Shown here: piece after piece, positions 2,234 through 17,878 of the stretch
Position numbering within the stretch: position 1 is the first letter of the stretch
Layout of the letters: each line of letters opens with the position of its first letter
DNA from: Mogibacterium sp.
Lineage (GTDB): Bacteria > Bacillota > Clostridia > Peptostreptococcales > Anaerovoracaceae
Direction: 5' to 3'
DNA: 64,000 bases
Assembly (NCBI GenBank): GCA_017510725.1
Contig: JAFWMD010000030.1
Location: forward strand, 1-64,000
Notes under the pieces: model-generated
The model's input: only the letters and a program-made list of their open reading frames with translations
The model's database searches: none
What the model was told of the DNA's origin: nothing
Made by a program: the position numbers and the translations under genes

Positions 2234-3310
2234 ATGGAAGGAACATTTGAAAGACCATTAGAATTTGAACTGGCGGATAAACTCGAGGCCAGCAGAGACC
2301 TGACTGATGATGAGTTTGCAGCTGTGCTGCTCTGTGATTATCCGGGATTCGATGAATATCTGGCCGGAAAGGCAAGAGCTGTCCGCGAAAAGTATTACGG
2401 CAAAAGTGTTTACCTGCGCGGTCTTGTCGAAATTTCAAATATATGCAGAAATAACTGCTATTACTGCGGTATCCGAAGGGACAATGCCAATGCGGAACGT
2501 TACCGCTTGAGTGAGGAGCAGATTCTCTCCTGCTGCGATGCGGGATATGATCTTGGATTCCGCACTTTTGTGCTCCAGGGAGGAGAGGATCCATATTACA
2601 CGGACGAGCTCATAGTCTCGATCGTCAGCGCCATAAAGGAAAGACATCCTGACTGCGCGGTCACGCTGTCACTGGGCGAGTTTGAAAAAGAGAGCTATCA
2701 GAAGTTTTTTGACGCCGGCGCCGACCGCTACCTGCTGAGGCATGAGACCGCTGATAAGGATCATTATGAGATGCTTCATCCGGCAGAGATGTCCTTTGAC
2801 CACAGGATGCAGTGCCTGAGAGACCTGAAGGACATCGGGTATCAGGTGGGCTGCGGAATGATGGTTGGCTCACCGTATCAGACGACAGAGCATCTGGTTA
2901 AGGATCTCCGCTTCCTGCAGGAATTCAAACCTGAAATGGTTGGCATAGGGCCGTTCATACCTCATCATGACACGTGCTTTGCTGACCGCGAGGCCGGTAC
3001 TGTAGATATGACTATAAGGCTGCTGTCCGTCATTCGCCTGCTTCTTCCGGATGTGCTGCTTCCGGCTACTACCGCACTCGGTACTATCGATCCGCGCGGA
3101 CGCGAGAAGGGCATACTGGCTGGCGCGAACGTGGTGATGCCTAATCTTTCACCTTCGGATGTAAGAGGCAAGTATCTGCTTTACGACAATAAGATCTGTA
3201 CGGGAGATGAAGCGGCTGAGTGCATACGCTGCATGGCTATGCGTATTTCGTCAGTTGGCTATGAGACGGTAGTTTCGCGCGGAGACCATGCCGCGTTTAG
3301 TATTAAATAA
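2234..3310 (+). CDS. hydE: [FeFe] hydrogenase H-cluster radical SAM maturase HydE
   Basis: 358 residues with the radical-SAM cysteine motif at C71, C75 and C78 (CRNNCYYC), preceded by RGLVEISN, the form typical of HydE rather than BioB or PylB. The rest follows the family (VLQGGEDPYY; RHETAD; GIGPFIPHHDT), and the length is usual for HydE. HydE acts with HydF and HydG to build the diiron subcluster of [FeFe] hydrogenase; neither partner nor the hydrogenase is in the window. An AGGAGA lies about 8 nt before ATG 2234. The gene stands alone, behind a possible terminated leader and ahead of the cysK control region. An [FeFe] hydrogenase elsewhere in the genome is therefore expected, as is usual in fermentative clostridia. 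Confidence 0.9.
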   Translation: MEGTFERPLEFELADKLEASRDLTDDEFAAVLLCDYPGFDEYLAGKARAVREKYYGKSVYLRGLVEISNICRNNCYYCGIRRDNANAERYRLSEEQILSCCDAGYDLGFRTFVLQGGEDPYYTDELIVSIVSAIKERHPDCAVTLSLGEFEKESYQKFFDAGADRYLLRHETADKDHYEMLHPAEMSFDHRMQCLRDLKDIGYQVGCGMMVGSPYQTTEHLVKDLRFLQEFKPEMVGIGPFIPHHDTCFADREAGTVDMTIRLLSVIRLLLPDVLLPATTALGTIDPRGREKGILAGANVVMPNLSPSDVRGKYLLYDNKICTGDEAAECIRCMAMRISSVGYETVVSRGDHAAFSIK

Positions 3311-3332: not shown

Positions 3333-3366
3333 ACCTATTGACTTGGTAGGTATTTAGGGTTAGAAT
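3333..3366 (+). promoter_or_regulatory. cysK promoter with overlapping dyad operator
   Basis: TTGACT (3338-3343), a 17-bp spacer and TAGAAT (3361-3366) form a good sigma-A promoter. The -35 box lies inside an inverted repeat, ACCTA (3333-3337), 9 bp, TAGGT (3347-3351). Placement over the -35 element is that expected of a repressor site. The shape recalls Rrf2-family (IscR/CymR-like) sites that control sulfur genes in Firmicutes, but the regulator is not in the window and this assignment is inference. Confidence 0.6.
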
Positions 3367-3404
3367 TGCGGCAGTCAGAAAATACTTAAAAAAGGGGCAG
3401 GTCA

Positions 3405-3506
3405 ATGAGAAATAATACTTATTCCAAACTTAATAAAAATCATTGGATGTGTTGTTGTCTGATGCAAAGCTCCCGGGCTCGATGTATGGCCGGGGTCTTG
3501 TCTTAG
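3405..3506 (+). CDS. Cysteine-rich leader peptide of cysK (33 aa)
   Basis: A 33-codon ORF starts at ATG 3405 behind an AAAGGGGCAGG Shine-Dalgarno at 3391-3401 and ends at TAG 3504-3506. It reads WMCCCLM in the middle: three consecutive TGT Cys codons at 3450-3458, and a fourth Cys codon at 3483-3485. It lies in the cysK leader, about 30 nt after the predicted start of transcription, and overlaps the 5' arm of an antiterminator. This is the layout of amino-acid attenuators of the trp/his type, here with Cys as the sensed amino acid: scarce charged tRNA-Cys would stall the ribosome on the TGT run. The peptide itself probably has no function. Confidence 0.8.
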   Translation: MRNNTYSKLNKNHWMCCCLMQSSRARCMAGVLS

Positions 3507-3592
3507 GATGACATGCACCTCGTCAGACATCAGACTCTGATCCCTGAAATCGAGTGACACGCCCGGGAGCATTTAAAGCCCCGGGCTTTTTA
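3457..3592 (+). promoter_or_regulatory. Transcription attenuator: antiterminator and terminator of cysK
   Basis: GCTCCCGGGC (3469-3478) is perfectly complementary to GCCCGGGAGC (3561-3570), extended inward by TCGA (3479-3482) with TCGA (3550-3553). The second arm also forms the 5' half of an intrinsic terminator, GCCCGGG (3561-3567) with CCCGGGC (3580-3586), followed by TTTTTAT. The two helices exclude each other. A third perfect 8-bp helix, GTCTGATG (3457-3464) with CATCAGAC (3528-3535), starts in the Cys codons. A ribosome stalled on the Cys codons would leave 3469-3478 free to form the antiterminator and allow cysK transcription. No T-box or SAM-box consensus is present. Confidence 0.75.
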
Positions 3593-3700: not shown

Positions 3701-4633
3701 ATGGCTAATATTTACAAAGGTACACTTGGACTTATCGGAAACACACCGCTCGTAGAGGTGATCAACATAGAGAAGGAGCTTGGACTTGAGGCTACAGTGC
3801 TCGTAAAGCTGGAGTACTTCAATCCTGCCGGAAGCGTTAAGGACAGGATCGCAAAAGCGATGATCGAGGATGCGGAGGAGAAGGGACTCCTCAAGGAAGG
3901 TTCCGTAATTATTGAGCCTACATCGGGCAACACCGGTATCGGACTTGCGTCGATAGCTGCTGCAAAGGGATACAGGGCTATCCTGACCATGCCTGAGACT
4001 ATGAGTGTTGAAAGAAGGAACATTCTCAAGGCTTATGGAGCTGAGATCGTACTGACTGAAGGCGCAAAAGGCATGAAGGGAGCTATCCAGAAGGCAGAAG
4101 AACTCGCCAAAGAGATAGAAGGCGGATTCATACCGGGACAGTTTGTGAACCCTGCAAACCCGGCGGTACACAAAGCTACAACGGGGCCGGAGATCTGGAA
4201 AGATACTGATGGTGCAGTAGATATATTCATTGCAGGAGTTGGAACAGGCGGCACTCTTACCGGTGCAGGTGAGTATCTCAAGGAGCAGAAACCTGAAGTA
4301 AAGATCGTAGCGCTCGAACCTGCTGACTCGCCGGTGCTTTCCGAGGGAAGATCGGGATCTCATAAGATCCAGGGTATCGGAGCGGGCTTCGTGCCTGATG
4401 TCCTCAACACTGCCGTATATGATGAAGTGTATAAGGCTGACGGACAGGACGCATTCAACGCAGCAAAGCTGCTTGCAAAAAAAGAAGGCATCTCCGTTGG
4501 AATCTCATCCGGAGCTGCTCTCCATGCAGCGATCGAATATGCGAAGAAGCCTGAGAATAAAGGCAAAACCATAGTAGCTCTTCTGCCTGACAGCGGAGAC
4601 AGATACTACTCAACAGCACTCTTTACAGAATAA
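3701..4633 (+). CDS. cysK: Cysteine synthase A (O-acetylserine sulfhydrylase)
   Basis: 310 residues, the usual CysK length. This PLP enzyme makes L-cysteine from O-acetylserine and sulfide in the cytosol. The PLP lysine is K47 in GSVKDR. The substrate loop TSGNTG is at 74-79. The glycine-rich phosphate loop is GVGTGGT near 177, and SSGAA near 267 is also conserved. GAGGA at 3689-3693 precedes ATG 3701. The gene stands alone; no cysE is in the window. The leader carries a promoter with a possible repressor dyad and a polycysteine attenuator, so both sulfur status and the charged tRNA-Cys pool may control it. After the terminator at 3561-3592 there is about 110 nt of AT-rich leader with no further signal I can support. 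Confidence 0.93.
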
Positions 4634-11513: not shown

Positions 11514-11624
11514 GAAGGCCTCTTTTCACCTGATTACTGTTTTGCATAATAATTGTATCATATTCGCAACATGAGGTGATACGGCTTGAATTCCAAAGAT
11601 TCCGTGACTATAATTAGTGATATC

Positions 11625-11712
11625 GAACACCAGGGGAGCAAATGCTGAGAGATCCCGGAAGGGATGACCCTTATACCTGATCCGGATAATACCGGCGTAG
11701 GAAGGTTATATT
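11625..11712 (+). promoter_or_regulatory. TPP (THI element) riboswitch
   Basis: The conserved aptamer blocks are present in order: CAGGGGAGC (11631-11639), GCTGAGA (11643-11649), ACCCTTATACCTGATC (11667-11682), and GGATAATACCGGCGTAGGAAGG (11684-11705) closing the helix. It binds thiamin pyrophosphate and sits upstream of thiT, so it should lower thiamin-transporter expression when TPP is plentiful. Confidence 0.95.
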
Positions 11713-11748
11713 AGTTGCAATGCCAGTTTTGTGCATGCTGTCAGCGCT

Positions 11749-14231: not shown

Positions 14232-17024
14232 ATGGCAAAAAAGGCTAAACAGCTGAGCCACGACGAGAAGATCTTCAAGCTTACGAAGATCATCACCGAC
14301 CGTAAAGAGATCCTCCTTGGACTTGAGAAGCCATCAAAGGATTCTCCTGAGTACTGGGGATTCGACTGCGGCTATCAGTACATCGTCAGGAGATACGGCA
14401 AGGACATCGCAGAAGAGTGTCTTGACACTGCTCTTGTGATGGGAAAGCGCAAGCCTAGGACATTTGCAAAAATGAAAGAACTGACAGGCTATGATGACGA
14501 TCATCTGAAGAAAGTTCTTGAGGCTCTTGGCCAGTTCGGTCTCGTTGAGTGGAACAATGAGAACGAAGACGGCAAGAATCCACAGCATGAAAGACGTTAT
14601 ATACTCGACCAGTTTGTCCCGGGATCAGCAGAGATCATGGTAATGAGAGACCAGATCATGTGTGAGACTCCTGAGATTGCAGACTTCTTTGAAAGAATGA
14701 CATATCTGCCGCTGGCAGGCATCACTCAGATGGTTGCTCCTGGCGGTTCCGGTATCGGAATGCATGTAATCCCTGTAGAGAAGGCTATCCCTGCAGAGTG
14801 CGAATCGCTCGACATCGAGCACATTTCATACTGGCTCAAGAAGTACGAAGGCCAGATCGGCCTCGGCATCTGCTCCTGCCGTAAACAGCAGACAGAGCGC
14901 GGTGAAGGTTCCGGAGACATCATGCAGTACTGGTGCATGGGCCTCGGCGACTTCGCTGACTACTGCAAAGAGACAGGCATGGGCTATGACATCACATATG
15001 AAGAAGCTCTCGAAGTACTTGAGAGGGCTGAAGATAAGGGCTATGTACACCAGGTTACAAACATCGACGGCGCAAACAAGATTTTCGCTATCTGCAACTG
15101 CGCAGTAGGTGTCTGCAACGCCCTGAGAACATCACAGCTCTTCAACACACCAAACCTTTCAGCTTCCCCATACCGCTCAGAGGTTGACGCTGAGAAGTGC
15201 GTAGCATGCGGTAAGTGCGTAGAGGTCTGCCCTGCAGGCGCTGTAAGACTCGGCCAGAAGCTCTGCACGAAGCACGGCGAAATCGAATACCCTAAGCAGG
15301 AGCTCCCGACCAACAACGTATGGCCTGAGGACAAGTGGAACTGGAACTACAAGAATGAGAACGGCGTCATCCAGACATGGCCTACAGGTACTGCACCTTG
15401 CAAGGCTGCATGCCCGCTGCACATCGCTATTCAGGGTTATATTGATATGGCAAGCAGAGGCGAGTACCAGGAAGCTCTCAAGCTGATCAAGAGAGACAAC
15501 CCGTTCCCTGCAGTCTGCGGAGCTATCTGCCATAAGTACTGCGAGCTCGAGTGCACAAGAGGCACTGTTGATGAAGCGCTTGCTATTGACGATATCAAAG
15601 CATTCATCGCTGCAAAGGACCTCGAGGACGAGCATAAATATATACCTCCAATGGTATCCTCAACGAGAGAGCCGTTCGAGCAGAAGATCGGTATTGTAGG
15701 ATCCGGCCCGGCAGGACTCAGCTGTGCATACTTCCTCGCAATCGAAGGCTACAAGCCTGTAGTATTCGAGAAGCAGGAGATGCCTGGCGGAATGATGACA
15801 CTCGGAATCCCTAACTTCAGACTCGACAAGAAGGTCGTAAACGCTGAGATCGAGATCCTTAAGGCTATGGGCGTTGAGATCAGATGCGGCGTTGAAGTAG
15901 GTAAGGACGTTACATTCCAGTCACTCCGTGAGGAAGGATTCAAGGGCTTCTTCGTAGGAACAGGTCTCCAGGCATGCGGCAAGCTGGGTATCCCTGGTGA
16001 TGACGCAGAAGGCGTTATCGGCGGTGTTGACTATGTAAAGAGCGTAACACTCGGCAAGGCTAAGAAACTTAGCGGCGACGTAGTAGTCATCGGCGGCGGA
16101 AACATCGGAGCTGACGTAGCACGTACAGCTATCCGTCAGGGCGCAAAGAGCGTACACCTGTACTGCCTCGAGTCCTATGACGAGATGCCTATGGGCGCTG
16201 AGGATCAGGAATTCCTCAAGAACGAAGGCATCGTTATCCACGACGGATGGGGCCAGACAGAAGTTGTCACAAAGGGCGGCAAGGTCGCAGGCATCAAGTT
16301 CAGAAAGTGCCTGTCGGTCAAGAACGCAGAGGGCAGATTCGCTCCTACATTCGATGACGCTCAGACAACAGAGCAGGCTTGCTCAACAGTCCTGTTCTCC
16401 ATCGGCCAGAAGCCTGATTATGGCAAACTGTTCGAAGGAACAAAGGTCGAGCTCAGCCCGCGCGGCATGATCGTTGCAGATCCTGTCACACTGCAGACTG
16501 CAGAGCCTGACATCTTCGCAGGCGGCGACTCCGTAAGCGGACAGAAGTTCGTAGTAGACGCACTCGCAATGGGCCGTGAAGGCGCTGTATCACTCCACAG
16601 ATTCGTCAACAAGGGACAGCACCTCATGATCCACAGAAATACACGTCAGTTTACCCCTCTCAACAAGGACGATGTCGTTATTCCGGCAGCTGACTTCAGA
16701 AAACCTCCTCGCCAGATCAGAGCAATCGACGAGAGCAAGAAGCTCACAATGGATTACGAGATCAAGCAGTTCAGCGAAGAGCAGATCAAGAAGGAAGCTG
16801 AGAGATGTCTCAAGTGCGGACGCAGCGTAGTTGATACAAACAAGTGTATCGGCTGCGGAATGTGCACCGTACAGTGCAAGTTCGATGCTATCCATCTCTT
16901 CCGTCTGCCGGATGGAGACAAGTACTCCAACATGATACCTGCAGAGCAGAAGTTCGTGGGCATCGGCAAGTACATGCCATCCCGTGTAGCAGGCATCATA
17001 AAGAAGAAAATCGCTGGCAGATAA
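14232..17024 (+). CDS. Multidomain Fe-S / GltD-like flavin oxidoreductase
   Basis: 930 residues. An N-terminal helical region (1-210; a winged-helix-like stretch at about 75-125) leads into cysteine motifs ICSCRK (213-218) and ICNCAVGVC (287-295). A [4Fe-4S] ferredoxin motif follows at C323, C326, C329, C333. From about 385 it resembles the NADPH-linked small subunit of glutamate synthase (GltD): APCKAACPLHIAIQGY, FAD-binding IGIVGSGPAGLSCAYF near 487, and NAD(P)-binding VVVIGGGNIGADVA near 617. The C-terminus has further cysteines: CLKCGRS then CIGCGMCTVQC. It probably passes electrons between NAD(P)H, FAD and Fe-S clusters; the physiological acceptor is unknown. No GltB partner is present. 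It is followed after 18 nt by hypA. GAGAGGGAAAAG precedes the ATG. Confidence 0.8.
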   Translation: MAKKAKQLSHDEKIFKLTKIITDRKEILLGLEKPSKDSPEYWGFDCGYQYIVRRYGKDIAEECLDTALVMGKRKPRTFAKMKELTGYDDDHLKKVLEALGQFGLVEWNNENEDGKNPQHERRYILDQFVPGSAEIMVMRDQIMCETPEIADFFERMTYLPLAGITQMVAPGGSGIGMHVIPVEKAIPAECESLDIEHISYWLKKYEGQIGLGICSCRKQQTERGEGSGDIMQYWCMGLGDFADYCKETGMGYDITYEEALEVLERAEDKGYVHQVTNIDGANKIFAICNCAVGVCNALRTSQLFNTPNLSASPYRSEVDAEKCVACGKCVEVCPAGAVRLGQKLCTKHGEIEYPKQELPTNNVWPEDKWNWNYKNENGVIQTWPTGTAPCKAACPLHIAIQGYIDMASRGEYQEALKLIKRDNPFPAVCGAICHKYCELECTRGTVDEALAIDDIKAFIAAKDLEDEHKYIPPMVSSTREPFEQKIGIVGSGPAGLSCAYFLAIEGYKPVVFEKQEMPGGMMTLGIPNFRLDKKVVNAEIEILKAMGVEIRCGVEVGKDVTFQSLREEGFKGFFVGTGLQACGKLGIPGDDAEGVIGGVDYVKSVTLGKAKKLSGDVVVIGGGNIGADVARTAIRQGAKSVHLYCLESYDEMPMGAEDQEFLKNEGIVIHDGWGQTEVVTKGGKVAGIKFRKCLSVKNAEGRFAPTFDDAQTTEQACSTVLFSIGQKPDYGKLFEGTKVELSPRGMIVADPVTLQTAEPDIFAGGDSVSGQKFVVDALAMGREGAVSLHRFVNKGQHLMIHRNTRQFTPLNKDDVVIPAADFRKPPRQIRAIDESKKLTMDYEIKQFSEEQIKKEAERCLKCGRSVVDTNKCIGCGMCTVQCKFDAIHLFRLPDGDKYSNMIPAEQKFVGIGKYMPSRVAGIIKKKIAGR

Positions 17025-17705: not shown

Positions 17706-17878
17706 GTCCGCGGCCATGTTCGTGGTTGCAAGTCCATGCCAGATACGGGCAAAGGGACCCACGTAAGCAGCATGCAAGAGGCGGCTGTGATCATGGCGTA
17801 TCTTAGAAGTAAGTCCTCCGCAAAGCGGGTAAAGGCGAGTGTGGGGTCAAAGACCAGGTCGAGTGGCCGCGGTGCTAA
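17706..17878 (+). ncRNA. Structured non-coding RNA, candidate raiA-motif RNA
   Basis: A closing helix pairs CCGCGGCCA (17708-17716) perfectly with TGGCCGCGG (17864-17872). Inside it are several hairpins: CGTGG (17721-17725) with CCACG (17759-17763); within that, GTCC (17732-17735) with GGAC (17755-17758) and TGCC (17737-17740) with GGCA (17748-17751); CTTA-GAAG-TAAG (17802-17813); CCGC-AAA-GCGG (17818-17828); GGTC-AAA-GACC (17845-17855). There is no ORF. Its size and its place near hpf/raiA suggest the raiA-motif RNA known from Firmicutes and Actinobacteria. That name is inference; the fold is seen directly. It lacks the signatures of RNase P RNA, tmRNA, 6S or SRP RNA. Confidence 0.75.

Follow-up and report, generated by a model that had tools for sequence, protein, structure and literature searches.

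A candidate ribosome-mediated transcription attenuator with a cysteine-codon leader before cysK in Mogibacterium sp., and related leaders before other sulfur genes in Clostridia

Within the 64,000-nucleotide stretch of Mogibacterium sp. DNA analysed here (the window), the leader of the cysteine synthase gene cysK is best read as a ribosome-mediated transcription attenuator that responds to the charging of tRNA-Cys, a reading to which we give a probability of roughly 0.86. The leader combines a short open reading frame (ORF) containing a run of cysteine codons with an antiterminator and an intrinsic terminator that share one arm and are mutually exclusive. An earlier note on this DNA had proposed a polycysteine leader and an antiterminator/terminator switch in front of cysK, and the conserved anatomy described below supports that core claim. 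Judged from sequence, leaders of the same type would form a widespread attenuator of sulfur genes in which the sensing codon usually specifies Cys and sometimes Met.

Layout of the cysK leader and its conservation in the genus

The elements of the locus all lie on the plus strand. The gene hydE (2234-3310; TIGR03956) is followed by a promoter-like site at 3338-3366, with a -35 element TTGACT (3338-3343) and a -10 element TAGAAT (3361-3366). An imperfect palindrome overlapping the -35 element, ACCTATTGACTTGGTAGGT (3333-3351), is a candidate operator for an Rrf2-family (CymR/IscR-like) regulator. Further downstream, a Shine-Dalgarno-like AAGGGG (3392-3397), read from the sequence, lies 7 nt 5' of the leader ORF MRNNTYSKLNKNHWMCCCLMQSSRARCMAGVLS (3405-3506), which has 33 codons and the stop codon at 3504-3506. 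Three adjacent TGT codons for Cys occupy 3450-3458, the last of them (3456-3458) being the putative sensor slot; at the sequence level the locus therefore has a leader ORF with a Shine-Dalgarno-like motif and codons for the amino acid of the pathway. The two arms of the antiterminator, GCTCCCGGGC (P1, 3469-3478) and GCCCGGGAGC (3561-3570), are perfectly complementary over 10 bp. The 3' arm also provides the 5' arm of the intrinsic terminator (3561-3591), in which GCCCGGG (3561-3567) pairs with CCCGGGC (3580-3586) across a loop of 12 nt and is followed by T5 (3587-3591). The T run ends 110 nt before the start of cysK (cysteine synthase A, 3701-4633; TIGR01139 at 442 bits against a cut-off of 351, and PF00291). 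The ORF with its codon run, the 10-bp antiterminator that excludes the terminator, and the terminator itself had all been placed by the earlier note exactly where they are found. An automatic scan missed the terminator because it lists loops of 3-8 nt only.

The earlier note had also described a third helix, GTCTGATG (3457-3464) with CATCAGAC (3528-3535), beginning in the Cys codons. This helix is present, but as a partner of the Cys codons 3528-3535 is less conserved than 3506-3518 (88.8% versus 97.7% of cells paired in 19 genomes), so that it is better regarded as an alternative. The partner helix of the OFF state is probably a protector hairpin, 3449-3476/3490-3518, whose outer 5' arm (3449-3460) includes the Cys codons and pairs with 3506-3518, and whose inner 5' arm (3464-3476) overlaps the antiterminator arm and pairs with 3490-3501. 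The 3' side of the hairpin (3490-3518) includes the stop codon. No Rfam family reached its gathering score at the leader locus. The only such families in the window are a TPP riboswitch aptamer (RF00059, 66 bits) at 11622-11720 and a raiA RNA motif (RF03072, 135 bits) at 17709-17871.

The window's genome (2.41 Mb, 91 contigs, completeness 84.5%, contamination 5.7%) is one of 47 examined from the genus. A protein search found cysK matches in 46 of these 47 genomes; 74 matches were listed and 46 upstream regions examined, with a clade of ~45% identity sampled only once. A leader of the form MCCCL-x-x-SSRARC-x-x-GVLS, or close to it, lies directly 5' of cysK in 19/47 genomes, and 28/47 have no such leader. 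The earlier note had suggested looking for a conserved run of Cys codons in relatives, and these 19 genomes provide it. Six are named records, comprising sheep and goat gut metagenome-assembled genomes (MAGs) called Mogibacterium sp. and Clostridiales MAGs. NCBI assigns Mogibacterium to Anaerovoracaceae in the order Peptostreptococcales, probably the family whose genomes are surveyed below. A covariance model, R1, built from the 19 leaders recovers 19/47 genus genomes. ORFs with at least three Cys in four codons were found within 350 nt before cysK in 25 of the 46 genus regions; the antisense strand gave 1 and shuffles 0.35. Outside the genus, such ORFs were found in 4 of the 85 upstream regions examined for the order's cysK matches, with 2 on the antisense strand and 0.25 in shuffles; among 72 named regions there was 1 (antisense 4, shuffles 0.25).

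The pairing itself is strongly conserved. In the 19 cysK leaders 98.9% of antiterminator cells are paired, compared with 20-51% for slid partners; the protector plus terminator reaches 96.4% (slid partners 43-51%), and the terminator helix alone 99.2%. Many nucleotides are invariant across these leaders. Neither the antiterminator nor the protector contains a pair changed on both sides within the 19, and the third helix has one two-sided cell. Since there is no two-sided change and shuffles do as well, the counts in the cysK group demonstrate conservation, not covariation.

Copies before other sulfur genes and a putative sensor slot

Matches to R1 extend to other genera, with ten clear sibling copies whose leaders include MCCRMLNSRACNMAG. 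Nine of them precede a gene resembling O-acetylhomoserine sulfhydrylase (metY), which is followed by cysK in seven cases, and one (in genome G439) precedes metF (TIGR00676). Weak R1 matches at six further loci (L256, L257, L259, L260, L262 and L263) were rejected, having no leader of this type. A model built from the ten siblings, R2, matched 36/296 genomes at E up to 0.01, and a combined model, R3, matched 56 places in 54 of 349 family genomes and 11 of 92 genera at E up to 0.001. Of these places 55 were kept in the counts. The one left out, in G280 (L332, near 506-658), is a weak relative (E 7.7e-7) with an altered antiterminator arm before a short-chain dehydrogenase-like gene. Among the 53 family copies with an assigned gene, 19 have cysK downstream and 32 a metY-like gene (51 in all), and the other two precede metF and an ABC transporter operon; two copies are unassigned. 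The labels of downstream genes mostly reflect N-terminal similarity judged by eye, a few copies having been scanned with protein-family models. The transporter operon, in G318, matches ABC_tran and BPD_transp_1, with no NCBIfam model above its cut-off. A Shine-Dalgarno-like motif of at least 4 nt precedes the best in-frame start, chosen to maximise the motif, in 53/55 copies.

The window's genome itself carries a second copy, on contig C40 at 15839-16004 (L261, L268), before metY (TIGR01326) and with a leader that includes MSCRMLNSRAYSMAGALCCDGAP. This contig may be foreign or a contaminant, since the cysK paralogue on it shares 324 of 330 upstream bases with genome G063. Both of those paralogues (L050 on C40 and L035 in G063) are preceded by a leader MTIDLHIEKEIMSDEYIAKGMRTRCRCMTGNYQE and then a GGGGAAC/GTTCCCC hairpin that has no U tract, possibly a further variant.

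Beyond the family, R3 was applied to 80 named cysK loci, a scan limited by their 3-kb flanks. At E up to 4e-13, 30 loci matched: six are the genus cysK copies, five had already been counted and 19 are new. The new copies precede a metY-like gene ~1.4 kb 5' of cysK (for two of them the printed start precedes the motif), and 16 of the 19 are labelled Lachnospiraceae. Three of them come from the isolates Lachnospiraceae AC2029, AB2028 and LC2019 and are open to direct study. One more locus, L097, matched at E 2e-5 (633-798); this divergent copy, with Met in the slot (MMCMRM..) and arms that by eye have changed to TGGGCAAG/CTTGCCC, was left out of the counts.

A class-wide sample gave R3 matches in 12/351 genomes and 6/206 genera, namely the window's own genome and 11 genomes from five other families. 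In one of these families the sole match is a divergent copy (G818, E 3.4e-8), which leaves four further families with strong matches. Seven of the 11 genomes belong to one genus and have up to three copies each. The copy in G818 (L362), near a metN-like gene, has arms CTCCCAGGC/GCCTGGGAG and a Phe slot, with Met-Cys-Met just 5' of the slot. Seventeen class copies were fetched. The gene 3' of them is a metQ/NlpA-like lipoprotein gene in six (PF03180 for L352), a cystathionine-lyase/synthase-like gene in five (PF01053 for L350 and L351, with no equivalog above cut-off) and metY in three (TIGR01326 for L361); the others precede a metN-like/permease/metQ-like operon, an amino-acid-type ABC operon and a cysK-like fragment. 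Four copies before cystathionine-lyase-like genes (L350, L353, L355 and L357) keep a CC-R-M leader with different antiterminator arms, whose complementarity seems by eye to be retained, as between CGGGCT and AGCCCG in L350. A view of the device as confined to the family and absent from Lachnospiraceae, drawn from the 450 nt immediately 5' of cysK and from an order-level sample (8/247 genomes, all in the family), was overturned by the scans of whole named loci and of the class. The large searches scored 8-11 candidates per genome, and absence is weak evidence throughout.

These wider copies also bear on the suggestion of the earlier note that the helices would co-vary: two-sided changes turn up among them, weakly in one set, but not in the antiterminator and protector within the cysK group. 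Three pairs of the antiterminator plus its extension change on both sides among the ten siblings; of 500 shuffles, 2 match the data in covariation score, 31 in cells paired and 40 in pairs. Across 26 non-cysK siblings 98.8% of antiterminator cells are paired, and two-sided changes affect 3 of the 10 pairs (5 cells; 0/500 shuffles). Two-sided variants include CTCCCGGACA with TGTCCGGGAG in G069 and G015, and CTCCCGGGTA with AACCCGGGAG in G439. The 19 named copies have 97.4% of antiterminator cells paired and two pairs with weak covariation (51-99/500 shuffles), and covariation in the terminator helix of the ten siblings is not beyond chance (154/500). A second short helix in the siblings, ATGGC/GCCAT, reads ATGAC/GTCAT in G358 and G409. 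All of these covariation scores may be inflated by the relatedness of the sequences.

Alignment of the copies points to a single informative codon, which lies five codons 5' of the one for Ser in the antiterminator arm and immediately precedes a conserved R-M or L-M pair. This slot codon begins 14 nt 5' of CTCCCGG. Toeprinting practice places the leading edge of a ribosome ~12-13 nt downstream of a codon held in the A site, so that a ribosome waiting at the slot would leave the arm just exposed; the slot is likely to be the sensor. It reads Cys in 49, Met in 5 and Gly in 1 of the 55 family copies, Cys in 15, Met in 3 and Trp in 1 of the 19 new named copies, and Cys in 14, Met in 2 and Phe in 1 of the 17 class copies, or overall Cys 78, Met 10, Gly 1, Trp 1 and Phe 1 (n = 91), frequencies that are biased by the relatedness of the sequences and by training of the models on Cys-containing copies. 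The ten Met-slot copies precede metY (9) or metF (1), and Met occurs in 0/19 cysK copies. Slot and gene do not correspond one to one, as Cys fills the slot in most metY copies and in six metQ-like copies. Most of 45 copies also have Met codons at -3 and at either -7 or -8, which makes sensing of both sulfur amino acids possible. In the metF copy of G439 (L258, 672-827), with a leader containing CMGMRMSGSRVKEMAGRAAM, the Cys codons are largely replaced by Met on the same RNA chassis.

These observations suggest a broader reading, to which we give even odds: that several orders of Clostridia share one RNA chassis, a programmable attenuator for sulfur amino acids whose specificity is set by a single slot one ribosome footprint 5' of the antiterminator arm (Cys in 78/91, with the 10 Met copies retuned to methionine). 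Such a chassis would have spread to cysK, metY, metF, cystathionine-lyase-like, metQ/metN-like and other transporter genes, with as many as three copies in a genome, and would coexist with T-boxes and with several poly-Cys attenuators of unrelated design. The natural swaps from Cys to Met at one position offer a ready test of how codon position sets the specificity of an attenuator.

Other cysK genes of the family have poly-Cys leaders with terminators that look unrelated to this one. In a second cysK clade (G001, G015, G066, G023, G029 and G010) the leaders are of RCCCMGMCPGVCSYAA or MCCCICMKG types, and the terminator GAGGCACC is matched within the ORF by GGTGCCTC or GGTGCTTC, or in G010 AGAAGCACCC by GGGTGCTTTT; the pairings in G029 and G010 were computed, and the others were found by eye where the terminator script found none. 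Leaders of CCNCCCLNAACKNAD type occur in G028, G062 and, in another genus, G283. The leader MLQTVNMGCCCMMNMESCTCCKEI of G168 has a 10-bp antiterminator. Before cysK in G253 (L151), a leader of 32 residues, 13 of them Cys (MRRNCCKNVCCCQMMCHRICCAAKCCNRSCCR), is followed by a terminator, with a weak antiterminator of 6 bp. Taken together, these leaders lend support to cysteine attenuation as a recurring solution.

A proposed switch, its folding and competing readings

When tRNA-Cys is uncharged, the ribosome translating the leader would stall once a Cys codon (3450-3458) occupied its A site, masking the 5' arm of the protector and leaving the antiterminator arm 3469-3478 free just past its leading edge. 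Pairing of this arm with 3561-3570 would block the terminator and allow transcription of cysK. When cysteine is plentiful, the ribosome would cross the antiterminator arm, reach the stop codon at 3504-3506 and leave. After its release, the Cys-codon region and the antiterminator arm could fold into the protector hairpin (3449-3518), and the terminator would win the short race between synthesis of 3570 and of 3586.

Folding computations agree with parts of this scheme. The RNA from 3469 to 3592 folds into the antiterminator (z = -4.6; 0/200 shuffles as stable), and the terminator region is also unusually stable (z = -2.7; 2/200), but the protector region 3440-3545 is not (z = -1.3; 20/200). With a stalled ribosome modelled, the minimum free energy (MFE) structure has all ten antiterminator pairs in 16 of the 19 cysK leaders and 10-11 pairs in 8 of the 10 siblings, and the slot codon lies 13-14 nt from the antiterminator arm, a placement suited to an attenuator. 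The exceptions are G009, G068 and G069 among the cysK leaders, with no pairs, and G358 and G206 among the siblings; the antiterminator of G009 and G068 has an A-C mismatch. In the window's genome the full MFE and the protector state are at -58.5 and -58.3, and the stalled-ribosome fold, with 10/10 antiterminator pairs, is at -54.2; across the 19 cysK leaders, the state combining protector and terminator lies 0 to 7 kcal/mol from the full-length MFE. Masking the 5' part made the antiterminator arm less sequestered in 51/55 copies, the medians falling from 0.74 to 0.46 for cysK and from 0.56 to 0.37 for the others, although the shorter RNA by itself favours a decrease.

The OFF state is the harder one to explain. 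The MFE of the whole leader has no antiterminator in 12 of the 19 cysK leaders and has one in 7, and in the window its presence depends on the 5' end chosen. At equilibrium, an RNA ending just past the 3' arm forms the antiterminator with a probability of 0.87-1.00 whether naked or carrying a stalled ribosome. The antiterminator is thus favoured even when no ribosome is present, thermodynamics alone does not account for the OFF state, and this state must rest on kinetics, on passage of the ribosome or on both. Furthermore, the 3' side of the protector would be hidden under any ribosome that lingered at the stop codon, so that fast release would be needed. The stop codon lies beyond the antiterminator arm in the 55 family copies, 18-102 nt after the start of the Ser codon; in G641 (L365) it lies just before the arm. 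The concern of the earlier note over this position was justified, and it marks the least certain step of the model.

Initiation is probably controlled as well, by an Rrf2-family regulator at 3333-3351. A CTATTGA-type site lies within 260 nt before 53/55 family copies, and upstream of 26 of 46 genus cysK genes, where 1.4 would be expected from mononucleotide shuffles. In G026 and G022, both of which have the site and lack this leader, a gene of the Rrf2 family adjoins cysK. The protein of G026 matches PF02082, with the CymR and IscR models below their cut-offs; a CymR-like regulator may control these genes.

The alternatives to attenuation by codon starvation are all improbable. In one of the two that survive best, which has a low probability, the nascent peptide MCCCL..SSRARC..GVLS would be an arrest peptide whose signal is cysteine, sulfide or redox state. 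The peptide is indeed well conserved towards its C-terminus in the 19 cysK leaders, but its conserved residues S-R-A are encoded by the antiterminator arm itself. The leader of G009 ends right after RCL, G003 replaces Ser by Phe and keeps a G-U pair, and the four class copies with other antiterminator arms lack SRA and keep CC-R-M. A swap of Met for Cys at a single slot is also better suited to codon reading. Equally improbable is control of the terminator by an uncharacterised riboswitch or protein-bound RNA, with an incidental ORF. Here the strong conservation of the RNA, including its many invariant nucleotides, and a CGAATG after the slot that siblings conserve for no evident reason have to be set against the lack of any Rfam match at the locus, the Shine-Dalgarno-like motif, an in-frame Cys or Met slot in 54/55 family copies, the excess of dense-Cys ORFs over shuffles before cysK, and the architecturally different poly-Cys leaders with terminators before other cysK genes.

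Somewhat less probable still is attenuation through translation coupling or Rho instead of an intrinsic terminator, as suggested for mycobacterial cys leaders. The accessible part of PMC1262725 describes Cys-run leaders from Mycobacterium, P. acnes and B. longum that have no clear terminator, but the terminator helix in front of cysK is almost fully paired in the 19 leaders, competes with the antiterminator and ends about 110 nt before the cysK start. Finally, an ordinary terminator of hydE beside a chance Cys-rich ORF is very improbable even though hydE ends at 3310 on the same strand: a promoter-like site separates it from the leader, and the combination of leader and terminator is found again ahead of cysK in 18 sister genomes, as well as ahead of metY-like, metF and transporter genes.

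Relation to known attenuators and T-boxes

Leader-peptide attenuation is a classical mechanism. Examples in Firmicutes include the his (PMC2965389) and ilv-leu (PMC5864092) leaders, although, as far as the accessible parts of PMC1262725 and PMC2965389 go, control by tRNA charging in this group is mostly credited to T-boxes and few leader-peptide attenuators are described. A literature search, with most subscription papers outside its reach, found no Cys-codon transcription attenuator in Clostridia and none on metY.

Two groups of Cys-codon leaders are among the closest systems. As presented in the accessible part of PMC8632094, uORFC-8-2, a motif with a published two-stem consensus upstream of cysS in Rhodobacterales, likewise has tandem Cys codons (two) in an upstream ORF, with the codons in a stem and an intrinsic terminator, and ribosome-mediated attenuation is proposed for it. 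The present leader falls outside that family, being found before cysK in Clostridia; uORFC-8-2 is confined to Alphaproteobacteria and cysS, whereas the device described here has another structure, precedes several sulfur genes and has a slot that varies between Cys and Met. The polycysteine leaders of mycobacteria and other Actinobacteria are likewise short ORFs with a Cys run before cysteine genes, but in what is accessible of PMC1262725 they are reported without conserved terminator hairpins, and the title of Canestrari 2020 reportedly calls them leaderless; the Mogibacterium leader differs from them in having a Shine-Dalgarno-like motif and an intrinsic terminator.

T-box riboswitches similarly control a terminator through tRNA charging, with a codon as specificity determinant, but the T-box model RF00230 has no match at the leader locus. 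Two T-box-like matches below the family cut-off were found elsewhere in the window's genome, before genes named by eye as ThrRS-like and TrpB-like (L335 on C90 and L336 on C21). The idea that these leaders replace missing T-boxes was rejected: 36/47 genus genomes have T-box matches (E up to 0.001), 3/47 of them above the family cut-off.

In overall design the device also resembles the trp/his-type attenuators, including Listeria Rli60 (ilv-leu) and Bacillus his, which also combine an amino-acid-rich leader ORF with an exclusive antiterminator and terminator (accessible parts of PMC5864092 and PMC2965389). Rli60 is, according to the same part of PMC5864092, likewise under a second, protein regulator. 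Unlike these systems, the present leaders precede sulfur genes, use Cys or Met codons and, with few exceptions, have one helix arm inside the leader ORF, 5' of its stop codon. The picture of how Firmicutes respond to tRNA charging would widen with a leader-peptide attenuator of sulfur genes that spans several clostridial orders and shares a genome with T-boxes.
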